A model generated the notes under the pieces. The model was not told the origin of the DNA. It made no database searches and was given only the letters and a program-made list of their open reading frames with translations. A program made the translations under genes and the position numbers. 35,317 nt of DNA from Rhodobacteraceae bacterium MED-G08 (GTDB lineage Bacteria; Pseudomonadota; Alphaproteobacteria; Rhodobacterales; Rhodobacteraceae). Position 1 is the first letter of the stretch. Every line of letters begins with the position of its first letter. Positions 2,929 through 24,382 of this stretch are shown in pieces. The DNA lies in the NCBI GenBank assembly GCA_002457055.1, contig NTKT01000021.1:1-35317 (forward strand), read 5' to 3'.

Positions 2929-3064
2929 GTGGGGCGGCAGCCGTAGATATTTTTAAGAGTGCTGAACGAGTACGCGTACTAGGTGAAACACGGATATATA
3001 TCATCACCGCATGGCAGATTATCTATTGGCTCGAAATTGCTAATGTCACACAATATTTATGTAA

Positions 3065-3097
3065 CAGTCATAAAAAGGTAACAATATGTTGTAAATT
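3065..3097 (+). promoter_or_regulatory. Pho box-like PhoB site with -10 element, upstream of the plcP-type operon
   Basis: Two tandem 11-mers lie at 3065-3075 (CAGTCATAAAA) and 3076-3086 (AGGTAACAATA). The first matches 10 of 11 positions of the Pho-box half site CTGTCATAAAA. The second keeps the GTAACA form seen in weaker half sites. A -10-like TAAATT sits at 3092-3097, about ten bases beyond the 18-bp core, which is the usual spacing where PhoB replaces the -35 element. Further TGTCACA (3044-3050) and TGTAACA (3060-3066) motifs lie upstream. This predicts induction by phosphate starvation. Confidence 0.55.
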
Positions 3098-3138
3098 AAA
3101 AGAGGTAAGTTTGCTGGAGTAGGAATGGAGAGGGGTAC

Positions 3139-3966
3139 TTGCAATATCCATCTGCGAATAAAGATCAGGTAAAATCTCACAGAACCCTTTTTATTTCAGA
3201 TCTACATCTGGGAGCGCGGGGTTGCCAGCCGGAAGCAATAATCGAATTCCTGAGGGAGTGTCGTGTAGATACAATTTATCTGGTTGGAGATATATTTGAC
3301 TTCTGGCATGTCGGGAAAATCCATTGGTCCAAGGTACACGACGAAATCATAGCGGAACTTAACCGATTGTGTATCAGCGGGATTCGCATAGTTTATCTGG
3401 TTGGAAATCACGATAAAAAAGCGCGGGAAGTCGCTTACAAGTATTTCCAAAAAGTCGAAATCGAAGAAACGGTTCTGCATCGCTCCGCCAATGGGAAAAA
3501 GTATCTCATTGCCCATGGCGACCAAGCAGATGGTCGGATCCTACGGTTGCATTTCATGACACTGTTCGGTAGCCGTCTTGATGCCTTGCTGAGGTCATTG
3601 GATAAATGGCTAAATTCAAATAAGAAACTGAGCTCTAACAAAAAAGGTTTTTTTAAGAGTATCATTTTCCAGTTCAACAAAGCTTTGTTCATGGGCGACC
3701 GCTTTGAAAGGCTACTCACAAAAATGGCAAAAGATGTTGGCGCAGACGGTGTCATTTGTGGACATTCGCACCGTCCTGGAATTTGGAAGCATAACGACTT
3801 AATTTATGCAAATTGTGGTGATTGGGTTGATAGTCTAACGGCTGTCACCGAAGATCATAACGGACACATCGAGTTGTTTGAATGGAAGCCTGAACCGAAA
3901 CCAAGGTCGCATCTTTTGCCGTTTTCTGAGGCTCAATTAGGAAACGAGCACGAGGTACGGACTTGA
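3139..3966 (+). CDS. plcP: PlcP-like phospholipase C (calcineurin-type metallophosphoesterase)
   Basis: This 275-aa cytoplasmic metallophosphoesterase belongs to the group often labelled UDP-2,3-diacylglucosamine hydrolase. In marine and rhizobial alphaproteobacteria it has been shown to act as phospholipase C (PlcP), releasing diacylglycerol during phosphate starvation. Metal-binding motifs are complete: Asp21 and His23 (SDLHLG), Asp51 (LVGDIFD), Asn90-His91-Asp92 (GNHD), His126 (AHGDQ), and His209 and His211 (GHSH), followed by NCGDWVDS. The length and the GDW motif fit PlcP better than LpxH (about 240 aa). The start is TTG at 3139 after GGAGAGGGG. It heads a four-gene operon under a Pho-box-like site and overlaps the next gene by four bases. 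Confidence 0.8.
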   Translation: MQYPSANKDQVKSHRTLFISDLHLGARGCQPEAIIEFLRECRVDTIYLVGDIFDFWHVGKIHWSKVHDEIIAELNRLCISGIRIVYLVGNHDKKAREVAYKYFQKVEIEETVLHRSANGKKYLIAHGDQADGRILRLHFMTLFGSRLDALLRSLDKWLNSNKKLSSNKKGFFKSIIFQFNKALFMGDRFERLLTKMAKDVGADGVICGHSHRPGIWKHNDLIYANCGDWVDSLTAVTEDHNGHIELFEWKPEPKPRSHLLPFSEAQLGNEHEVRT

Positions 3967-5066
3967 TCTTGCACAACAGTCCCTCCAAAACCGACAGCTT
4001 CAATCTGCCTGCTGTTCTAGCGAAGACTGTGGCACTGCCAGTTTTTACTCTAATATTTTTGATCCACCGGCTAGCATTCGCGTTGGACCTTATTCTGTTT
4101 CCCCAGCTGAAAAACGTTCCGATCAAAAAACCCCTTTTCATAGTGGGACTTCCTCGGAGCGGGACAACTACTGCGCATCGCTTGATGGCCAGCCATAAAG
4201 AGCTTTATACCTCAATGCCGTTGTGGGAGTTAATTTTTGCACCTGCATTATGTCAGAAATATCTCATTTGGGGAGTTTATCAGGCTGATGCAGCCATCGG
4301 AGGGCCAGTACATAAAGCAGTCAACTGGATACAAGTGAAGCTGGCTGCAATAATGGATAATATCCATCCAACAGGCTTGACTGACCCAGAAGAGGATTAT
4401 CTTGGCCTACTGCCATTCGACGGCTGTTTTCTGCGCGTTTTGATTTTTCCCTTCGCCAAGTCAACATGGGCTCTCGGCGATTTTTCATCCTTACCAGTTG
4501 CCAAGCGTCAGAAGCTAATAACGGCTTATCGTGGGCTAGTGCAGCGACATCTTAAATTTCGCGGGGAAGATAAGCGTTTACTCTCCAAAAACCCAAGTTT
4601 CACGAAATGGGTTAATGATTTGGCTAAAACATTCCCTGACGCAGGTTTTGTCGGAATGTACCGTGATTTGGAACAAGTTGTCCCTTCGCAACTCAGCTCA
4701 ATACATTTAGGCCTGCAGATTTTTGGCTACTCTGCAAAAGACCCAAGGATCGTCAAAAAGTTCGTAACGCTCCTCAAGCATTACGAAGACGGAATAAAGG
4801 AGCACGAAGAAAATCTTGGTTCGCGTATGTTGCCGCTTGATTTTAAAGCTATTGCTGACAAGCCAGAAAAGGCCGTAGAAGCGCTTTATGAGCACTTCCA
4901 CCTACCTAAAAGAAACAATCTGGATGCCGCACGGCTGTCTAACCTATTGGCAGAGACCAAGGCGTATAGGTCCAGGCATTCATATTCGCTTCGCGACTTT
5001 GGGTTGGAAGTTCAGGACCTGAAATCACCATTGACATCGCCACTCGTGAACAGCGCGGGAGCTTAG
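3963..5066 (+). CDS. Sulfotransferase family protein (membrane-associated)
   Basis: A 367-aa PAPS-dependent sulfotransferase-type protein. The 5'-phosphosulfate loop is clear at residues 61-70 (VGLPRSGTTT). A later MYRDLEQVVPSQLSSI segment fits the 3'-phosphate-binding strand and helix. A hydrophobic stretch at about 23-46 precedes the catalytic domain, so it is probably attached to the inner membrane, as expected for a lipid or glycolipid substrate. The start is TTG at 3963 within the stop of plcP (TTGA overlap), implying translational coupling. The acceptor is unknown; its place between PlcP and a glycosyltransferase suggests a lipid-linked sugar or diacylglycerol-derived lipid. Confidence 0.75.
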   Translation: MILHNSPSKTDSFNLPAVLAKTVALPVFTLIFLIHRLAFALDLILFPQLKNVPIKKPLFIVGLPRSGTTTAHRLMASHKELYTSMPLWELIFAPALCQKYLIWGVYQADAAIGGPVHKAVNWIQVKLAAIMDNIHPTGLTDPEEDYLGLLPFDGCFLRVLIFPFAKSTWALGDFSSLPVAKRQKLITAYRGLVQRHLKFRGEDKRLLSKNPSFTKWVNDLAKTFPDAGFVGMYRDLEQVVPSQLSSIHLGLQIFGYSAKDPRIVKKFVTLLKHYEDGIKEHEENLGSRMLPLDFKAIADKPEKAVEALYEHFHLPKRNNLDAARLSNLLAETKAYRSRHSYSLRDFGLEVQDLKSPLTSPLVNSAGA

Positions 5067-5074
5067 TTCTTTAG

Positions 5075-6262
5075 ATGAAGGCAATTACAAATCAATTCGA
5101 CGCTCATGTCCCAAAGGTATTATTCCCTTTGACGGAAGCTGTTTCTTTGACACAAACGGTAACTACACGCAGGTCTGATATCCGAATTGCCGTCGTCTCA
5201 GATGCTATTCCCGGGCGAAACGGTGTTGGGACGTATTATCTCGATTTGCTGGCCCAAATTCATACGAGAGTAGGAGCGGCTCAGCTTTTCTCACCGAGTG
5301 TTACGCCAGAGCGGACTTTGGAGAGGTTTGCCTTACCTCTTCCGGGGGATAAGACGCAGCGCTTAGCGTGGCCAAAAAAACACGAGCTTTTTAAGCAATT
5401 AGATGCGCTAAACCCGACCATGATAGTGATACCATCGCTCGGCATGTTTTCGTATTTCGGCCTACGTTATGCACTGAAAAAAGAAATTTCCCTCGTAGTC
5501 GTGAACCATACAGATTTCGATCATTTACTATCGCTCTACTGGCCCCAATGGCTGTCCCGACCGTTCCGAAAGATCCTAGCAACGATAAATCATTGGCTCT
5601 GCAAAAAAGCGGCCGGAATAGGTGTGATGAACGCTGAGGCAGAGCAGAAAGCATGGAAAGATGGAGCCTGTCTTGTTCAGATCATGGCGACTCCGCTCAA
5701 CACAGACTTTCTGACCCACCCAATCCAGCCGATTAAAGGTCCTATTAATCGGGCTATTTTCGTTGGTCGTTTGGCACCGGAAAAAGGCATTCATGAAATA
5801 TTGAATGCAGTTTATTCACTTCCGAAGATGCATTTCACAATTGTCGGAAACGGTCCGTTGAGGAAAAAAGTGCAAGAGGCAGCCAAGTCGTGTGAAAATC
5901 TATCATATCTCGGATGGCTACCACGCAAACGTGTGCGTGAAGAAATTGATGCAGCGCATATTCTGTTGTTGCCGTCTGCCTACGAAACATTCGGCACCGT
6001 CGCCTTAGAAGCTCTAGCGAGAGAGCGTTTTGTCGTTGTAAGCGAGGGATGTGGTATCTCAAAGTGGCCTTCACTTGCCAATGGGGTTTTCATTACTTCC
6101 CCAGAAACATCTTTGACCAAAGTCTTATCTGACATCCCTCAGCAAAAGCCTGAGGATCGAGACCGCCACGCCCGACAAAGTTGGCGAGCTGTCCGCGAAT
6201 TCAATGAAAAAGCGATATCGGATTGGTTGGACTTTCTTGACGCAGCCACTGCCAAACAATAA
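5075..6262 (+). CDS. GT4-family glycosyltransferase (probable glycolipid synthase)
   Basis: A 395-aa GT-B retaining glycosyltransferase. The N-terminal domain starts with IRIAVVSDAIPGRNGVGTYY, the acceptor-side loop. The C-terminal domain has the nucleotide-sugar region GRLAPEKG (231-238) and the E-x7-E motif Glu304/Glu312 (YETFGTVALEAL). It starts eight bases after the sulfotransferase stop. In other alphaproteobacteria a glycosyltransferase next to plcP (Agt type) transfers glucose, galactose or glucuronate to the diacylglycerol that PlcP makes, replacing phospholipids. I infer that role here; the donor sugar cannot be read from sequence. The first 34 residues look like a non-conserved extension. 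Confidence 0.8.
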   Translation: MKAITNQFDAHVPKVLFPLTEAVSLTQTVTTRRSDIRIAVVSDAIPGRNGVGTYYLDLLAQIHTRVGAAQLFSPSVTPERTLERFALPLPGDKTQRLAWPKKHELFKQLDALNPTMIVIPSLGMFSYFGLRYALKKEISLVVVNHTDFDHLLSLYWPQWLSRPFRKILATINHWLCKKAAGIGVMNAEAEQKAWKDGACLVQIMATPLNTDFLTHPIQPIKGPINRAIFVGRLAPEKGIHEILNAVYSLPKMHFTIVGNGPLRKKVQEAAKSCENLSYLGWLPRKRVREEIDAAHILLLPSAYETFGTVALEALARERFVVVSEGCGISKWPSLANGVFITSPETSLTKVLSDIPQQKPEDRDRHARQSWRAVREFNEKAISDWLDFLDAATAKQ

Positions 6263-6296
6263 CTAAAGATAGCCTAGGTAATAGGGGAACCCTCCA

Positions 6297-6986
6297 ATGA
6301 AGGCGCTTGTTTCCATACATGACGTGATGCCAAACACCATAAAAGAGGTAGCTGAGCTTTTGGAAATATGCCGCTCGTTCGGCCTTCGGCGGGTCACTTT
6401 GTTTGTTGTCCCAGGGCTAGATTGGCAACCAGCACAAATTAATCAACTTCGGCAGTGGCAGAAAAGGGGTTATGAACTGGCAGCACATGGATGGGTCCAT
6501 CGTTGCGTCTCAAAGAAGACATTCTGGCACCTTTTGCACGGCTTGATCTTATCTCGTGGTGTTGCCGAGCACTTGAGTCTAAATCCCAACGAGATTGTGG
6601 ATCTAATGCAAAAGTCATGCAATTGGTTTGTTAAAAACGGATTTGACCAACCTTCGCTCTATGTTCCTCCAGCCTGGGCGCTTGGGAGCATTTCGAAAAG
6701 GGGACTGCGCAGTTGCGGGTACACTTGGGTCGAAACTCTTTCAGGCGTAGTTTTTACCCAAACCGGACAGACAAAGCGTCTTCCATTAGTAGGGTTTGAA
6801 GCCGACACTTTCACCCGAGAGCTTGCACTTCGCGTACTCAATAACGTAGTCTTATGGATGCCAACAAACAAGCCCCTTCGCATTTCGATCCACCCTTACG
6901 ATCATAAATTAAGGATGGGCAAAAGTCTTCCCGCAATTTTGCAGCGTTGCACAAAGACGCTGAGTTATTCTGAGATAACAGTCTAA
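6297..6986 (+). CDS. NodB/DUF2334-type polysaccharide deacetylase
   Basis: A 229-aa deacetylase-fold protein, the last gene of the operon. The metal site is recognisable: Asp9 in VSIHDVMP, and His64 and His68 in AAHGWVH. A C-terminal ISIHPYDH motif supplies the second catalytic His. These enzymes remove acetyl groups from N-acetylated sugars or related amides. There is no signal peptide, so it acts on the cytoplasmic side. The start ATG follows AGGGGAA. After a glycosyltransferase, a cytoplasmic deacetylase would fit de-N-acetylation of a lipid-linked amino sugar, as in GPI or glucosaminyl-lipid synthesis. This is inference. Confidence 0.7.
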   Translation: MKALVSIHDVMPNTIKEVAELLEICRSFGLRRVTLFVVPGLDWQPAQINQLRQWQKRGYELAAHGWVHRCVSKKTFWHLLHGLILSRGVAEHLSLNPNEIVDLMQKSCNWFVKNGFDQPSLYVPPAWALGSISKRGLRSCGYTWVETLSGVVFTQTGQTKRLPLVGFEADTFTRELALRVLNNVVLWMPTNKPLRISIHPYDHKLRMGKSLPAILQRCTKTLSYSEITV

Positions 6987-19657: not shown

Positions 19658-20599
19658 TCACTGCCAACGCAGCCCGCGCGATTTAAAAATTTTTTTTGCG
19701 CGATCGGTGTAATCAGTTATAATTCCATCTACACCGATATCGATCATAGTTTCCATATCTTCAACCTCGTTTACCGTCCAAGTGCAAACCGGCAAACCTA
19801 AGCTATGTGCTTCGGCAACAAGATCTGCAGTTACATCTTTAAAATATGGACACCATAAGTGCCCACCCGCAACTTGAATGGCCTCAGGTATAGACCTGTT
19901 GAAAGATGAGAAATCAGGTGAAATTTCTTCACAAGGTTTATCGTATGGATCATCCAAACTTTCGGGCAGCTGAGATAAGTATGATCGTGGCATGTTTGGG
20001 GCCAAACGATTACACTCTTCTAATAAGTCCCAGTCAAAGCTGTGCAAAACTGTGCGATTTGACAAAGATCTTTTTTCGATTTCAAAAACTATATTTTCAA
20101 TAATCGTACTTTTTTTGACTAACGGTTCAGATTTGATCTCTAATAGTAAGAATAGATTTTTACCTTTTGGAAGACAGGCTAGATCAAGTAGATCAGTTAA
20201 TTTGGGTATGCGAACATCTGATAAGCAAGCTTGTTCCGGATATAAACGACCATAAGAACTACTTTTATCCACACCGCCAACATCAAACATTTCAAGCTGA
20301 GAGCTTGTAAGATTACTTATTCGTGGCCCATCTTTCGAAAGCCAATTACCCTCAGAATTTCTTGTTATCGCTTTTGATAAATAAAAGTCATGAGTAATTA
20401 CTGGTATTTCATCTTTTGTAAGTAAAACGTCAAACTCGATCGCTTTTATCTCGTTGTCTAAAATGTACTCGAAACCCTCGATCGTATTTTCTGGCATTAA
20501 TCCCCTAGCGCCCCGGTGACCAATCAAGCCGATAAATCCAGGCTTTCCGCGAAAAGCATTTAGCTGGGGAAAGTTTTGCAAGTGTGGAGAGTCTTTCAA
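19658..20599 (-). CDS. Glycerophosphodiester phosphodiesterase (GDPD family)
   Basis: A 313-aa cytoplasmic enzyme that hydrolyses glycerophosphodiesters to glycerol-3-phosphate and an alcohol. Active-site residues are all visible: His28 and Arg29 (GHRGARG), Glu37 (PENT), Glu55 and Asp57 (AIEFDV), and His70 (THDFYL). The ending VDGIITDYTDRAKK is typical. No signal peptide is seen, so it is closer to UgpQ than GlpQ. The start is TTG at 20599, supported by AAGGA. It follows the DUF1330 gene by 39 bases and is probably co-transcribed. It would recycle headgroups of degraded phospholipids, thematically related to plcP, but there is no Pho box here. Confidence 0.88.
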   Translation of the reverse strand: MKDSPHLQNFPQLNAFRGKPGFIGLIGHRGARGLMPENTIEGFEYILDNEIKAIEFDVLLTKDEIPVITHDFYLSKAITRNSEGNWLSKDGPRISNLTSSQLEMFDVGGVDKSSSYGRLYPEQACLSDVRIPKLTDLLDLACLPKGKNLFLLLEIKSEPLVKKSTIIENIVFEIEKRSLSNRTVLHSFDWDLLEECNRLAPNMPRSYLSQLPESLDDPYDKPCEEISPDFSSFNRSIPEAIQVAGGHLWCPYFKDVTADLVAEAHSLGLPVCTWTVNEVEDMETMIDIGVDGIITDYTDRAKKIFKSRGLRWQ

Positions 20600-21520: not shown

Positions 21521-24382
21521 TTATGCGATAAGAATGGTGTTTGCGGCAGCCGCGTCTGCGACTGCAGTGACCCCAGTTAAACCCGTTAACTCTATCACGT
21601 TCACAATAGACACGTTTGCCGTGTTGTTGTCGAATGTATCATTACTCTCAACAATATATGTATTTCCGCTGAGTTGAAATGCAACTACACCAACGGCATC
21701 TGCATCATCTGCAGCTTTCTTTATAACGCCATCGACTGATACTGCGTCGATCCATTCCGAAAGAGTGTTGATAAGACCAGCATCTGACCCTGATAAAGTT
21801 GCAACTCCATTTGTGACGGAAGCCGTAACCGTTTCACCTCCACTACCACCGGCAATCGCACTTTTCACGTCGATAGATCCAGAATTTGCTCCTTTAGCTC
21901 CAGTTACTAAGTCAATTGTATCATTATCTGCATCGGCGGCGGCAGCTTGATAATCGGTTATCTTATCCATAGAAGCCTCAGTTGATGTTCCTGATGCGAA
22001 ATCAAACTCGTCGTCGCCAGCTCCTCCAGTCAGTGTGTCGGCCCCTGATCCGCCATTTATTGTGTCATTTCCGGTGCCTCCGGAAATAGTATCGGCGGAT
22101 GCTCCGCCACTTAAATTATCATTTGCATTTGACCCAGTTATTGTATCATCACCACTGGTCCCAGTAACAGTCACCCCAGAGCTTGAGGAGCTAGCATTCA
22201 CGGCAACACTGTCTGTGCCTGACGCAAAGGAGGAGGCGAAAGTAAAATTTGATAAGTTTATTGTTGTTTGATCGGCAACAACTGTAAATACGGCAGTACC
22301 AGTTCCATCTTCTGCAAGTTGCAGGGTTGCCCCAGACACGTCACTTGCGGCAATTTTTTGGGTTGTCCCGCCGCCTGTTAACAAGATGCGTTCAACGGAA
22401 GTGAGGGTTAGATTGCTTGCACTTAAATCTACGCCTGCAGCAAGAGAGAGTGTGTCTGAACCTCCACCACCTGCGTTGATGTTTATTTTGGCGGATGATC
22501 CATCTCCATTCGTTGTAATTCTTATTGAATCATTAGATCCGTTTGATGCTATCACAAATCCATTCGAATCTGCGGTTATTCCATCTATTTTTATACTATC
22601 CGCTGCTGATCCTGTCTGAATATTAGCTACGCCATTGGTAGTCCCGTCTAAGTTAAGTGTCGCAGATCCTGACAAACTTGATGCATTTAATGCTACTCTG
22701 GTTGAACTGCTGCCGGTGATTGTATTGCTGTTGAGATCAAAGTCACCTGTCCCGGTAACCACAACACTAGTGAGATCAGCTCCAGTTAAATCGGCGGAGC
22801 TGTCAAGATTTAAATCATCTAAAAGACTTAAATTGAGTGTTTGAACATCTACAAAGTTTAAGCCAGCAATATTAGCCGATTTATCGCCATTTGATGTGTT
22901 TGAATCAAAAGTTTTTAGTGTCAGTGCGTTTGTGGTAGAACTTGTTGCGTCTGTTTTATGGTCAAAAGTTGGTGCAGAAGTTGAAGAGGTTTGAGCAATT
23001 TCCGTATCGAGATAAAAATCCTGACTGTCTTTTATTGTAATTGTTTTTCCATCGAAGTTTTTTAACCTGAGCTTTACAGACGTTGCGACATTCGTAAAAT
23101 CTGCTGTCGCACCTGTTAACCAGAGAGTTGCTTCTGAGTTAGTATTTACAACAGTCTCAGTTGAAATATCTGCAGAGTCTATACTTACGACCAGGGGAGA
23201 GGAGCCACCTAAGGTTAACTTTTCTAAGGTTGATGCATAAAGATTAAAGTTCGTTGAATTTCCTAAAGAATTTATGGCATTAACGCTTACATCTTGGTTG
23301 CTAACACTATCTGAGTATATCGTAGATTCCTCTGCAGCAGTAAGATTGAGAATTTGTGCGGAAGCCAAGCCATTATTAGATGTTGCGGTAATTGAACCTG
23401 CCGATTTTATAGTTGCTTTTCCAGCTGAGTTAGCGTCTGTAATTGTGATATCAGTGCCTAAAGGTGCTCTTTCATTAGTCAGATTAAGCGTTCCAGTAGT
23501 ATTTGTTGCGCTAATTACATTAATAGTACCCACATTGGTAACATCTATATTCCCTTTTAAGGCACTCAAGTCCCGTAGCGTAACATCCCCATTACTGGTA
23601 ATCGCCACATTTCTGAGTGCTGATGCAGCCGTAATGTCTGCAGCATATGCTTTGTTGATTATTATGTCTTGAGTTGCAGTAGAAGAGGTTAATGTGACAC
23701 TTTTCCCACCTGCATTTACAATTAGATCTTTGGATGAACCAGTTGTCGATAAAGCAGTGTCGGCTGAAATATTTAAGTTTATATCTTTGTCTGATTGGCC
23801 TGCAACTTTTATTGTTGAAAAATGTGAGCCTACAGAAATAGTTGCGCCGACATTTATTAAATCGAGTGTTTTTACTAAAGAGTTTGAATTAGTATTTTCA
23901 AAACTTACAGTGTCACTCCTGGTGATGTTCACCAAGTTCACATCAAACTCATAATCGTCACCCAACTTTGTGGCCGAAGTCGTAAAAATAATCTTCTCTA
24001 TGCCACTTACTGTTGGTGTACCGATAATATCGTCATTAGCGGTTATTGTAAGTGTATCGTTATCGTAAGGGTCCGTATCGGCAACACTTGTACCGGATAT
24101 CAAAGTAGAACTTGTTGCAGTTATCGTATCGTTTACCCCAGCCAAACCTAAGTTTTCCACTTCGGCAACAACCACTAATGAATTTGAAGTAACAGGAACT
24201 GTTGAAGTGTCGTCAGTAGTAGTATCTGTTGTAGTTTTTGTGCTTGATGTATTGCTTCCGCAACTTGAAAGTATCATTGCAAGCAATGGATAACTGTAAG
24301 CTTTTTTTCTTAGCTTTGTTAGCAAATCCAGACGAAGCGTCAGATCTCTAATTAAACTCTTATTTATTATCGATTTTACCAT
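21521..24382 (-). CDS. Large RTX-repeat surface protein with N-terminal lipobox
   Basis: 953 aa, rich in Ser, Thr, Asp, Gly and Ala, with no Cys after residue 41. The N-terminus has a basic region and a short hydrophobic stretch ending in a lipobox, LSSC with Cys41, then a Thr/Asp-rich linker. The body (about 70-735) is degenerate beta-strand repeats like S-layer or large adhesin proteins. RTX nonapeptides (GGxGxDxxx type) at about 739-792 would bind calcium. The end (GNTYIV, then VIELTGLTG, ending ANTILIA) resembles RsaA-type S-layer C-termini used by type 1 secretion. No T1SS genes are in the window. Lipoprotein and T1SS signals together are unusual. Confidence 0.7.
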   Translation of the reverse strand: MVKSIINKSLIRDLTLRLDLLTKLRKKAYSYPLLAMILSSCGSNTSSTKTTTDTTTDDTSTVPVTSNSLVVVAEVENLGLAGVNDTITATSSTLISGTSVADTDPYDNDTLTITANDDIIGTPTVSGIEKIIFTTSATKLGDDYEFDVNLVNITRSDTVSFENTNSNSLVKTLDLINVGATISVGSHFSTIKVAGQSDKDINLNISADTALSTTGSSKDLIVNAGGKSVTLTSSTATQDIIINKAYAADITAASALRNVAITSNGDVTLRDLSALKGNIDVTNVGTINVISATNTTGTLNLTNERAPLGTDITITDANSAGKATIKSAGSITATSNNGLASAQILNLTAAEESTIYSDSVSNQDVSVNAINSLGNSTNFNLYASTLEKLTLGGSSPLVVSIDSADISTETVVNTNSEATLWLTGATADFTNVATSVKLRLKNFDGKTITIKDSQDFYLDTEIAQTSSTSAPTFDHKTDATSSTTNALTLKTFDSNTSNGDKSANIAGLNFVDVQTLNLSLLDDLNLDSSADLTGADLTSVVVTGTGDFDLNSNTITGSSSTRVALNASSLSGSATLNLDGTTNGVANIQTGSAADSIKIDGITADSNGFVIASNGSNDSIRITTNGDGSSAKININAGGGGSDTLSLAAGVDLSASNLTLTSVERILLTGGGTTQKIAASDVSGATLQLAEDGTGTAVFTVVADQTTINLSNFTFASSFASGTDSVAVNASSSSSGVTVTGTSGDDTITGSNANDNLSGGASADTISGGTGNDTINGGSGADTLTGGAGDDEFDFASGTSTEASMDKITDYQAAAADADNDTIDLVTGAKGANSGSIDVKSAIAGGSGGETVTASVTNGVATLSGSDAGLINTLSEWIDAVSVDGVIKKAADDADAVGVVAFQLSGNTYIVESNDTFDNNTANVSIVNVIELTGLTGVTAVADAAAANTILIA

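Follow-up and report, generated by a model that had tools for sequence, protein, structure and literature searches.

Which lipid, if any, is made by an operon that joins a PlcP-type phosphoesterase and a glycosyltransferase to a sulfotransferase and a deacetylase? The question is raised by a 35,317-nucleotide contig (NTKT01000021.1, here called the window) of Rhodobacteraceae bacterium MED-G08, which is one of 39 contigs in a 2.2 Mb genome that is 86.6% complete. Calling of open reading frames (ORFs) revealed four closely packed ORFs on the plus strand between positions 3139 and 6986. The first two overlap by 4 bases and gaps of 8 and 34 bases follow, so that the overlapping or near-touching operon claimed in an earlier reading of this DNA (the original prediction) is confirmed by gene layout and Pfam domains. 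The matches of all four proteins exceed the family cut-offs. We tentatively read these genes as a lipid-remodelling operon, probably acquired by horizontal transfer, for a sulfated aminoglycolipid without phosphorus, a lipid that has itself not been seen, and we give this reading a little less than an even chance.

In the pathway that we infer, with its substrates, step order, product and phosphate control, the PlcP-type phosphoesterase would cut a phospholipid to diacylglycerol, as its family suggests. A family 4 glycosyltransferase (GT4) would then move N-acetylglucosamine (GlcNAc) from uridine diphosphate (UDP)-GlcNAc to diacylglycerol, with the sugar suggested by the deacetylase, and the DUF2334 enzyme would strip the acetyl group in the manner of GpgD to leave glucosaminyl-diacylglycerol. 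Finally the sulfotransferase, with 3'-phosphoadenosine 5'-phosphosulfate (PAPS) as donor, would sulfate either the freed nitrogen, giving an anionic N-sulfoglucosaminyl lipid, or a hydroxyl, giving a zwitterionic one. The product would stand in for phosphatidylglycerol or phosphatidylethanolamine under phosphate shortage. Remodelling of this kind saves phosphorus for ocean bacteria, and the phosphorus-free substitutes linked to plcP in the relevant part of PMC4796936 are glycosyl, glucuronosyl and betaine lipids. The predicted sulfated amino-sugar head group is not among them and would take its charge from sulfate, which is abundant in seawater. The prediction is specific, with four genes and a few candidate masses.

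The first gene (3139..3966, plus strand, TTG start; Metallophos PF00149, 60.9 bits) is placed by its sequence with PlcP rather than LpxH, as a divergent PlcP type. Grouping with LpxH had been set beforehand as the outcome that would count against the PlcP assignment, and we found the opposite. In blastp, 32 alphaproteobacterial PlcPs gave scores of 142-179 bits with the protein, and the LpxH of E. coli, the single LpxH used as reference, gave 52 bits. Its scores with the two LpxH equivalog models (60.8 bits for a cut-off of 134 and 56.3 bits for a cut-off of 190.35) are far below both cut-offs, and an LpxH identity was rejected. The 60.8 bits are slightly above the scores of two canonical PlcPs with the same model (49.5 and 44.2). 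Stretches of the form GNHD and GDWVxSxTA are common to the window protein and the aligned PlcPs. In a tree of 35 rows the window PlcP and its copy in the related genome AG-359-N23 form a branch of their own (support 100/98) apart from the 32 canonical PlcPs (95/89), with an uncertain root that depends on one LpxH row with a very long branch. The window genome holds no other PlcP match at E≤1e-3. We predict that this protein releases diacylglycerol from a phospholipid.

The second gene (3963..5066, plus strand, TTG start overlapping the plcP stop) encodes a PAPS-type sulfotransferase (Sulfotransfer_3 PF13469, 83.5 bits). R65, G67, T68 and T69 in the P-loop as well as R234 and S242 are invariant in all ten aligned sulfotransferases; we take these to be the PAPS-contact motifs, that is, the P-loop for the 5'-phosphosulfate and the 3'-phosphate site. 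The best Foldseek match of its structural model (predicted local distance difference test score, pLDDT, 64) was STF1 of M. tuberculosis (2zq5; E 2.8e-10, template modelling (TM) score 0.57), and mycobacterial STF1 and STF9 (2zq5, 2z6v) are the nearest solved structures by sequence, too. At about 20% identity these enzymes give no substrate for the window protein. The protein had been described as a membrane-associated sulfotransferase, of which the family assignment stands and the membrane part comes down to a predicted N-terminal helix (residues 15-45) of partly low confidence. Distant relatives at three loci (L008, L009 and L010) form the C-terminal domain of longer ORFs (about 830-845 amino acids), whose N-terminal part appears reductase-like from reading the ORFs; no clue to a substrate was obtained from these fusions.

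The fourth gene (6297..6986, plus strand) encodes a DUF2334/COG3233-like N-deacetylase (PF10096, 57.2 bits), whose sole NCBIfam match in all four genomes that carry it is the GlcNAc-phosphatidylglycerol deacetylase model NF053788 (GpgD), near full length; for the window protein the match covers residues 4-207 at 57.3 bits. Since this model is its only NCBIfam match, GlcNAc is the probable sugar, and its deacetylation would give glucosamine. D9, H64 and H68 are invariant in the four carriers and presumably bind the metal. The structural model is weak (pLDDT 51), and its top Foldseek match is a member of the chitin deacetylase family (E 2.7e-4). The third gene (5075..6262, plus strand; Glycos_transf_1 PF00534, 77.8 bits) encodes the GT4 glycosyltransferase, in which E304-x7-E312 is invariant in all four carriers. 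An N-acetylhexosamine donor is likely on the grounds of the deacetylase, with no independent support from the glycosyltransferase. The latter is predicted to place (N-acetyl)hexosamine on diacylglycerol, and the deacetylase to expose the amino group of the sugar once it is lipid-linked.

The cluster is conserved in a second genome of the genus. When 147 relatives were queried with the sulfotransferase (E≤1e-30), two genomes were recovered, the window's own and AG-359-N23 (G001), a record of the window's genus that is 75% complete. The latter carries the same four genes in the same order (identities of 73% for PlcP, 80% for the sulfotransferase, 78% for the glycosyltransferase and 75% for the deacetylase), and the plcP and sulfotransferase genes overlap in both genomes. 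At 73-80% identity, this shared order is not due to chance. The AG-359-N23 cluster is adjoined, in divergent orientation, by phnC (TIGR02315, 304 bits, cut-off 266) and by a partial phnD that is cut by the contig end. A scan of genome contigs, in which a target had to contain either of two short peptides without mismatch and which therefore reaches close relatives only, returned three relatives: AG-359-N23, MED595 (a metagenome-assembled genome, MAG, of the SAR116 cluster) and BS307-5m-G7 (an alphaproteobacterial MAG that falls in the SAR116 order). MED595 and BS307-5m-G7 encode the trio of sulfotransferase, glycosyltransferase and deacetylase at 68-73% identity; a stretch of 7.9 kb is 99.6% identical between the two, and we therefore count them as about one event. 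Sulfotransferase and deacetylase occur together in all four carrier genomes found, and no further carrier was found beyond these. PlcP is likewise present in all four, compared with 99 of 289 genomes in a sample of the class (E≤1e-25, own genome included) and three of 16 in the genus (E≤1e-10). In both SAR116-order carriers (L044:1295-4487 and L045:164-5888) the trio is preceded by a CehA/McbA-like metallohydrolase gene, with ABC transporter genes of the spermidine/putrescine or 2-aminoethylphosphonate type further upstream, none of which exceeds an equivalog cut-off. A role of the CehA/McbA-like gene as a substitute for PlcP is unsupported (69.9 bits for a cut-off of 80, no Pfam match).

A search for the four-gene order across marine alphaproteobacteria, which had been suggested with the original prediction, accordingly recovered it in a second genome of the genus and the trio in the SAR116 order. 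A general operon of marine alphaproteobacteria is ruled out by the rarity of the two additional enzymes. Among 385 genomes of the class, seven including the window's own encode a relative of the sulfotransferase at E≤1e-12, the other six at no more than 30% identity, and at the same threshold the deacetylase was found in the window's own genome only. At E≤1e-20 the sulfotransferase is present in two of 136 SAR116-order genomes. In the genus it is present in two of 16 genomes. We also inspected 20 PlcP neighbourhoods, namely the 19 best-scoring of the 98 other class genomes with a PlcP and one of the window's genus (G011), some of which ended at contig edges. A glycosyltransferase lies near PlcP in all 20 (tblastn, E≤1e-4), and a sulfotransferase or deacetylase in none at the same threshold, which distant versions could escape.

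The operon was probably acquired horizontally. Its third-position GC (0.44-0.49) differs from that of 14 hand-picked other genes of the window (0.31-0.41), and this unusual base composition fits acquired DNA. Spread by viruses is unsupported, as a scan of viral contigs returned no relative. On plasmids we found two sulfotransferases (Chloroflexota and Gloeothece) and one deacetylase (Novosphingobium), each 28-30% identical; the listed neighbours of the two sulfotransferases include no glycosyltransferase or deacetylase. On the megaplasmid of Novosphingobium sp. PP1Y (L088, 6001-9041) the deacetylase relative (29%) is followed by two ORFs, one glycosyltransferase-like and one with multiple membrane spans that might encode a flippase, an arrangement that, with labels from reading the ORFs, resembles the gpgSDF cluster described below.

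PlcP followed by a glycosyltransferase is an established remodelling pair, and the section of PMC4796936 on plcP contexts describes six of them, betaine-lipid genes and glycosyltransferases included. That section mentions neither a sulfotransferase nor a deacetylase, and the word 'deacetylase' does not occur in the main text of the paper. According to the pertinent passage of PMC8231724, the SAR11 glycosyltransferase accepts UDP-glucose, UDP-galactose and UDP-glucuronic acid. With PlcP-Agt remodelling in marine and soil alphaproteobacteria, as outlined in these two papers (PMC4796936, PMC8231724), the window operon shares a PlcP-type phosphoesterase, a GT4 enzyme and possible Pho control. It differs by the additional sulfotransferase and N-deacetylase and by its sequences, as PlcP is 30-38% and the glycosyltransferase 22-31% identical to the canonical proteins. 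Canonical PlcP-glycosyltransferase pairs are present in the window's genus (L065, in G011) and in a SAR116 carrier (L067, in MED595). In G011 the pair adjoins pst-, phoU- and phoB-like ORFs as read by eye.

A second precedent is provided by P. aeruginosa, where, in the account given in parts of PMC12713373, phosphatidylglycerol receives GlcNAc through the GT4 enzyme GpgS before deacetylation by GpgD (COG3233). This gpgSDF system, as well as hexSDF of C. difficile (PMC12713373), resembles the window operon in combining a GT4 enzyme and a COG3233-type deacetylase for an amino-sugar lipid. In contrast to gpgSDF, the window operon has a sulfotransferase added, lacks a flippase and scores far under both equivalog cut-offs, and the presence of PlcP suggests diacylglycerol as the acceptor in place of phosphatidylglycerol. 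It is a reasonable inference by analogy that the operon represents PlcP-based remodelling joined to amino-sugar addition of the GpgSD type, with sulfation added.

The proposed order of deacetylation and sulfation has a further parallel in the heparan sulfate N-deacetylase/N-sulfotransferase (NDST), by which the amine of GlcNAc is freed and then sulfated (PMC10864358). The window, in contrast, encodes separate bacterial proteins that would act on a lipid, and no homology is claimed. The window sulfotransferase presumably also belongs to a family other than that of NDST. A more specific form of our proposal, in which GlcNAc on PlcP-derived diacylglycerol is deacetylated and N-sulfated to N-sulfoglucosaminyl-diacylglycerol, a sulfamate lipid that replaces an anionic phospholipid and has spread horizontally, is distinctly unlikely in our estimation. 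If true, it would bring the heparan-type logic of deacetylation followed by N-sulfation to a bacterial membrane lipid and imply horizontal spread among phosphate-stressed marine alphaproteobacteria. Sulfoquinovosyl diacylglycerol (SQDG) is a sulfonate. Together with the sulfur-containing aminolipid (SAL) of roseobacters (PMC8319176) it resembles the proposed product as a sulfur-bearing bacterial lipid. Unlike the proposed product, SAL is described as a sulfonate made with the acyltransferase SalA, and 'sulfotransferase' does not occur in the main text (PMC8319176). The 2025 Roseobacter genome survey PMC12661815 has no occurrence of PlcP, sulfotransferase or AG-359-N23. Among the literature matches listed, no such operon or lipid was apparent from titles or the start of abstracts, with most subscription papers and all preprints outside this search.

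Several observations weigh against the reading as a sulfated-lipid operon. Besides the divergence of its PlcP noted above, there is the location of PlcP in the SAR116-order carriers, which encode it away from the trio. The operon is unremarkable in GC in AG-359-N23 (0.465 compared with 0.464 for the contig) and at L044 (0.411 compared with 0.412), which points to no particular donor. A flippase gene, as present in gpgSDF, is missing. The deacetylases of the four carriers score 50-57 bits with NF053788, far under its cut-off of 280, and the operon glycosyltransferases reach 44-51 bits with the GlcNAc-phosphatidylglycerol synthase model (GpgS, NF053787; cut-off 480), which is less than the 83-84 bits of two canonical PlcP-linked glycosyltransferases. 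In view of these higher scores we rejected the glycosyltransferase alone as a basis for GlcNAc specificity. The promoter evidence is mixed, too. A Pho-box-like array of four 7-base half-sites in an 11-base register (ATGTCAC-acaa-TATTTAT-gtaa-CAGTCAT-aaaa-AGGTAAC) is located at 3043-3082 on the plus strand, and we scored it with CTGTCAT-N4-CTGTCAT, which we take to be the Pho-box consensus. Of the claimed Pho box, two half-sites match the consensus at 9 of 14 positions, no better than shuffled sequences (p 0.33 and 0.27), and four half-sites match at 17 of 28 (p 0.003 against dinucleotide shuffles), an extension that was chosen post hoc after viewing the sequence. In the two SAR116-order MAGs, the region upstream of the trio has no significant Pho box.

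Phosphate control of the operon is plausible, with context from PlcP itself and from the phnC and phnD neighbours in AG-359-N23. The promoter of AG-359-N23 gave 9 of 14 matches (p 0.25; four half-sites, p 0.64), as did the region upstream of the canonical plcP of G011 (p 0.36), and 8 of 14 were found upstream of its pstS (p 0.64). The failure of these pstS and plcP controls suggests that this consensus may not suit this genus, and the failure in the window therefore weighs little. A block that spans these sites, GTCATAAAA..TAACAA.ATGTTG, is identical at 21 of 25 positions between the window and AG-359-N23, with 17 in the best of 60 shuffled pairs. In MED595, the region upstream of the canonical PlcP, which adjoins a glycosyltransferase and a PhoB-like response regulator ORF (labels from reading the ORFs), has a Pho box with 11 of 14 matches (p 0.013).

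The supply of PAPS is the chief difficulty for sulfation. The claim of a sulfated-lipid operon gains from the placement of PlcP, the conserved cluster, the phnC/phnD flank and the paired enzymes. Against it counts that adenosine 5'-phosphosulfate (APS) kinase (PF01583), which supplies PAPS, went undetected in both genomes of the window's genus that carry the operon (86.6% and 75% complete). It is present in both SAR116-order carriers and in nine of the 16 genomes of the genus, and if it were always present it would be missed in both carriers by incompleteness alone with a probability of about 0.03, which we consider moderate evidence against sulfation in the carriers of this genus. The operon might then yield only glucosaminyl-diacylglycerol, a cationic phosphorus-free lipid for which PlcP, glycosyltransferase and deacetylase already suffice by analogy to GpgS and GpgD as described in PMC12713373, with the sulfotransferase-like protein of these carriers either being inactive or drawing on a different donor. 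We regard this as rather unlikely, as the PAPS-site residues are conserved, the other carriers retain the sulfotransferase with 68-81% identity, a degree of conservation similar to that of its neighbours, and APS kinase may be encoded in the unassembled 13% and 25% of the two genomes. Six of the nine genus genomes with APS kinase (G002, G005, G006, G007, G008 and G010; genomes 53-96% complete) have no detected PF01507 (CysD/CysH-type), which suggests that PAPS in this genus may be made for sulfotransfer rather than assimilation.

The separate location of PlcP in the SAR116-order carriers could also mean that PlcP is a mere neighbour in the window's genus and that the substrate for sulfation and deacetylation by the trio is a surface glycan, lipid A or a different polar lipid, for example glucosaminyl-phosphatidylglycerol. 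This would agree with the phospholipid substrate of GpgD given in the corresponding part of PMC12713373 and with the glycosyltransferase-like ORFs around the Novosphingobium deacetylase relative. We consider it unlikely, though, given that the plcP and sulfotransferase genes overlap in two genomes, that phnC and phnD adjoin the cluster in one, that PlcP is found in all four carriers and that, besides a single glycosyltransferase, no ORF up to about 3 kb from the operon was recognised as a polymerase or flippase (by eye, and by Pfam for three upstream ORFs). Ordinary remodelling of the Agt type to a neutral or glucuronosyl diacylglycerol, with sulfotransferase and deacetylase acting elsewhere, is very improbable. 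Although PlcP with a glycosyltransferase is the standard arrangement in all 20 neighbourhoods, neither additional enzyme was detected there by tblastn (E≤1e-4), the operon glycosyltransferase is only 22-31% identical to those near other PlcPs, and sulfotransferase, glycosyltransferase and deacetylase stay joined where PlcP does not.

Two further ORFs of the window, both on the minus strand, deserve mention. The ORF at 19658-20599 reads as a glycerophosphodiester phosphodiesterase, a label that we assume from a motif rather than a domain search; it is not linked to the operon and could recycle lipid glycerol-phosphate. The ORF at 21521-24382 encodes a protein of 953 amino acids with C-terminal GGxGxD-type repeats, which we take to be an RTX-like surface protein by its motif.

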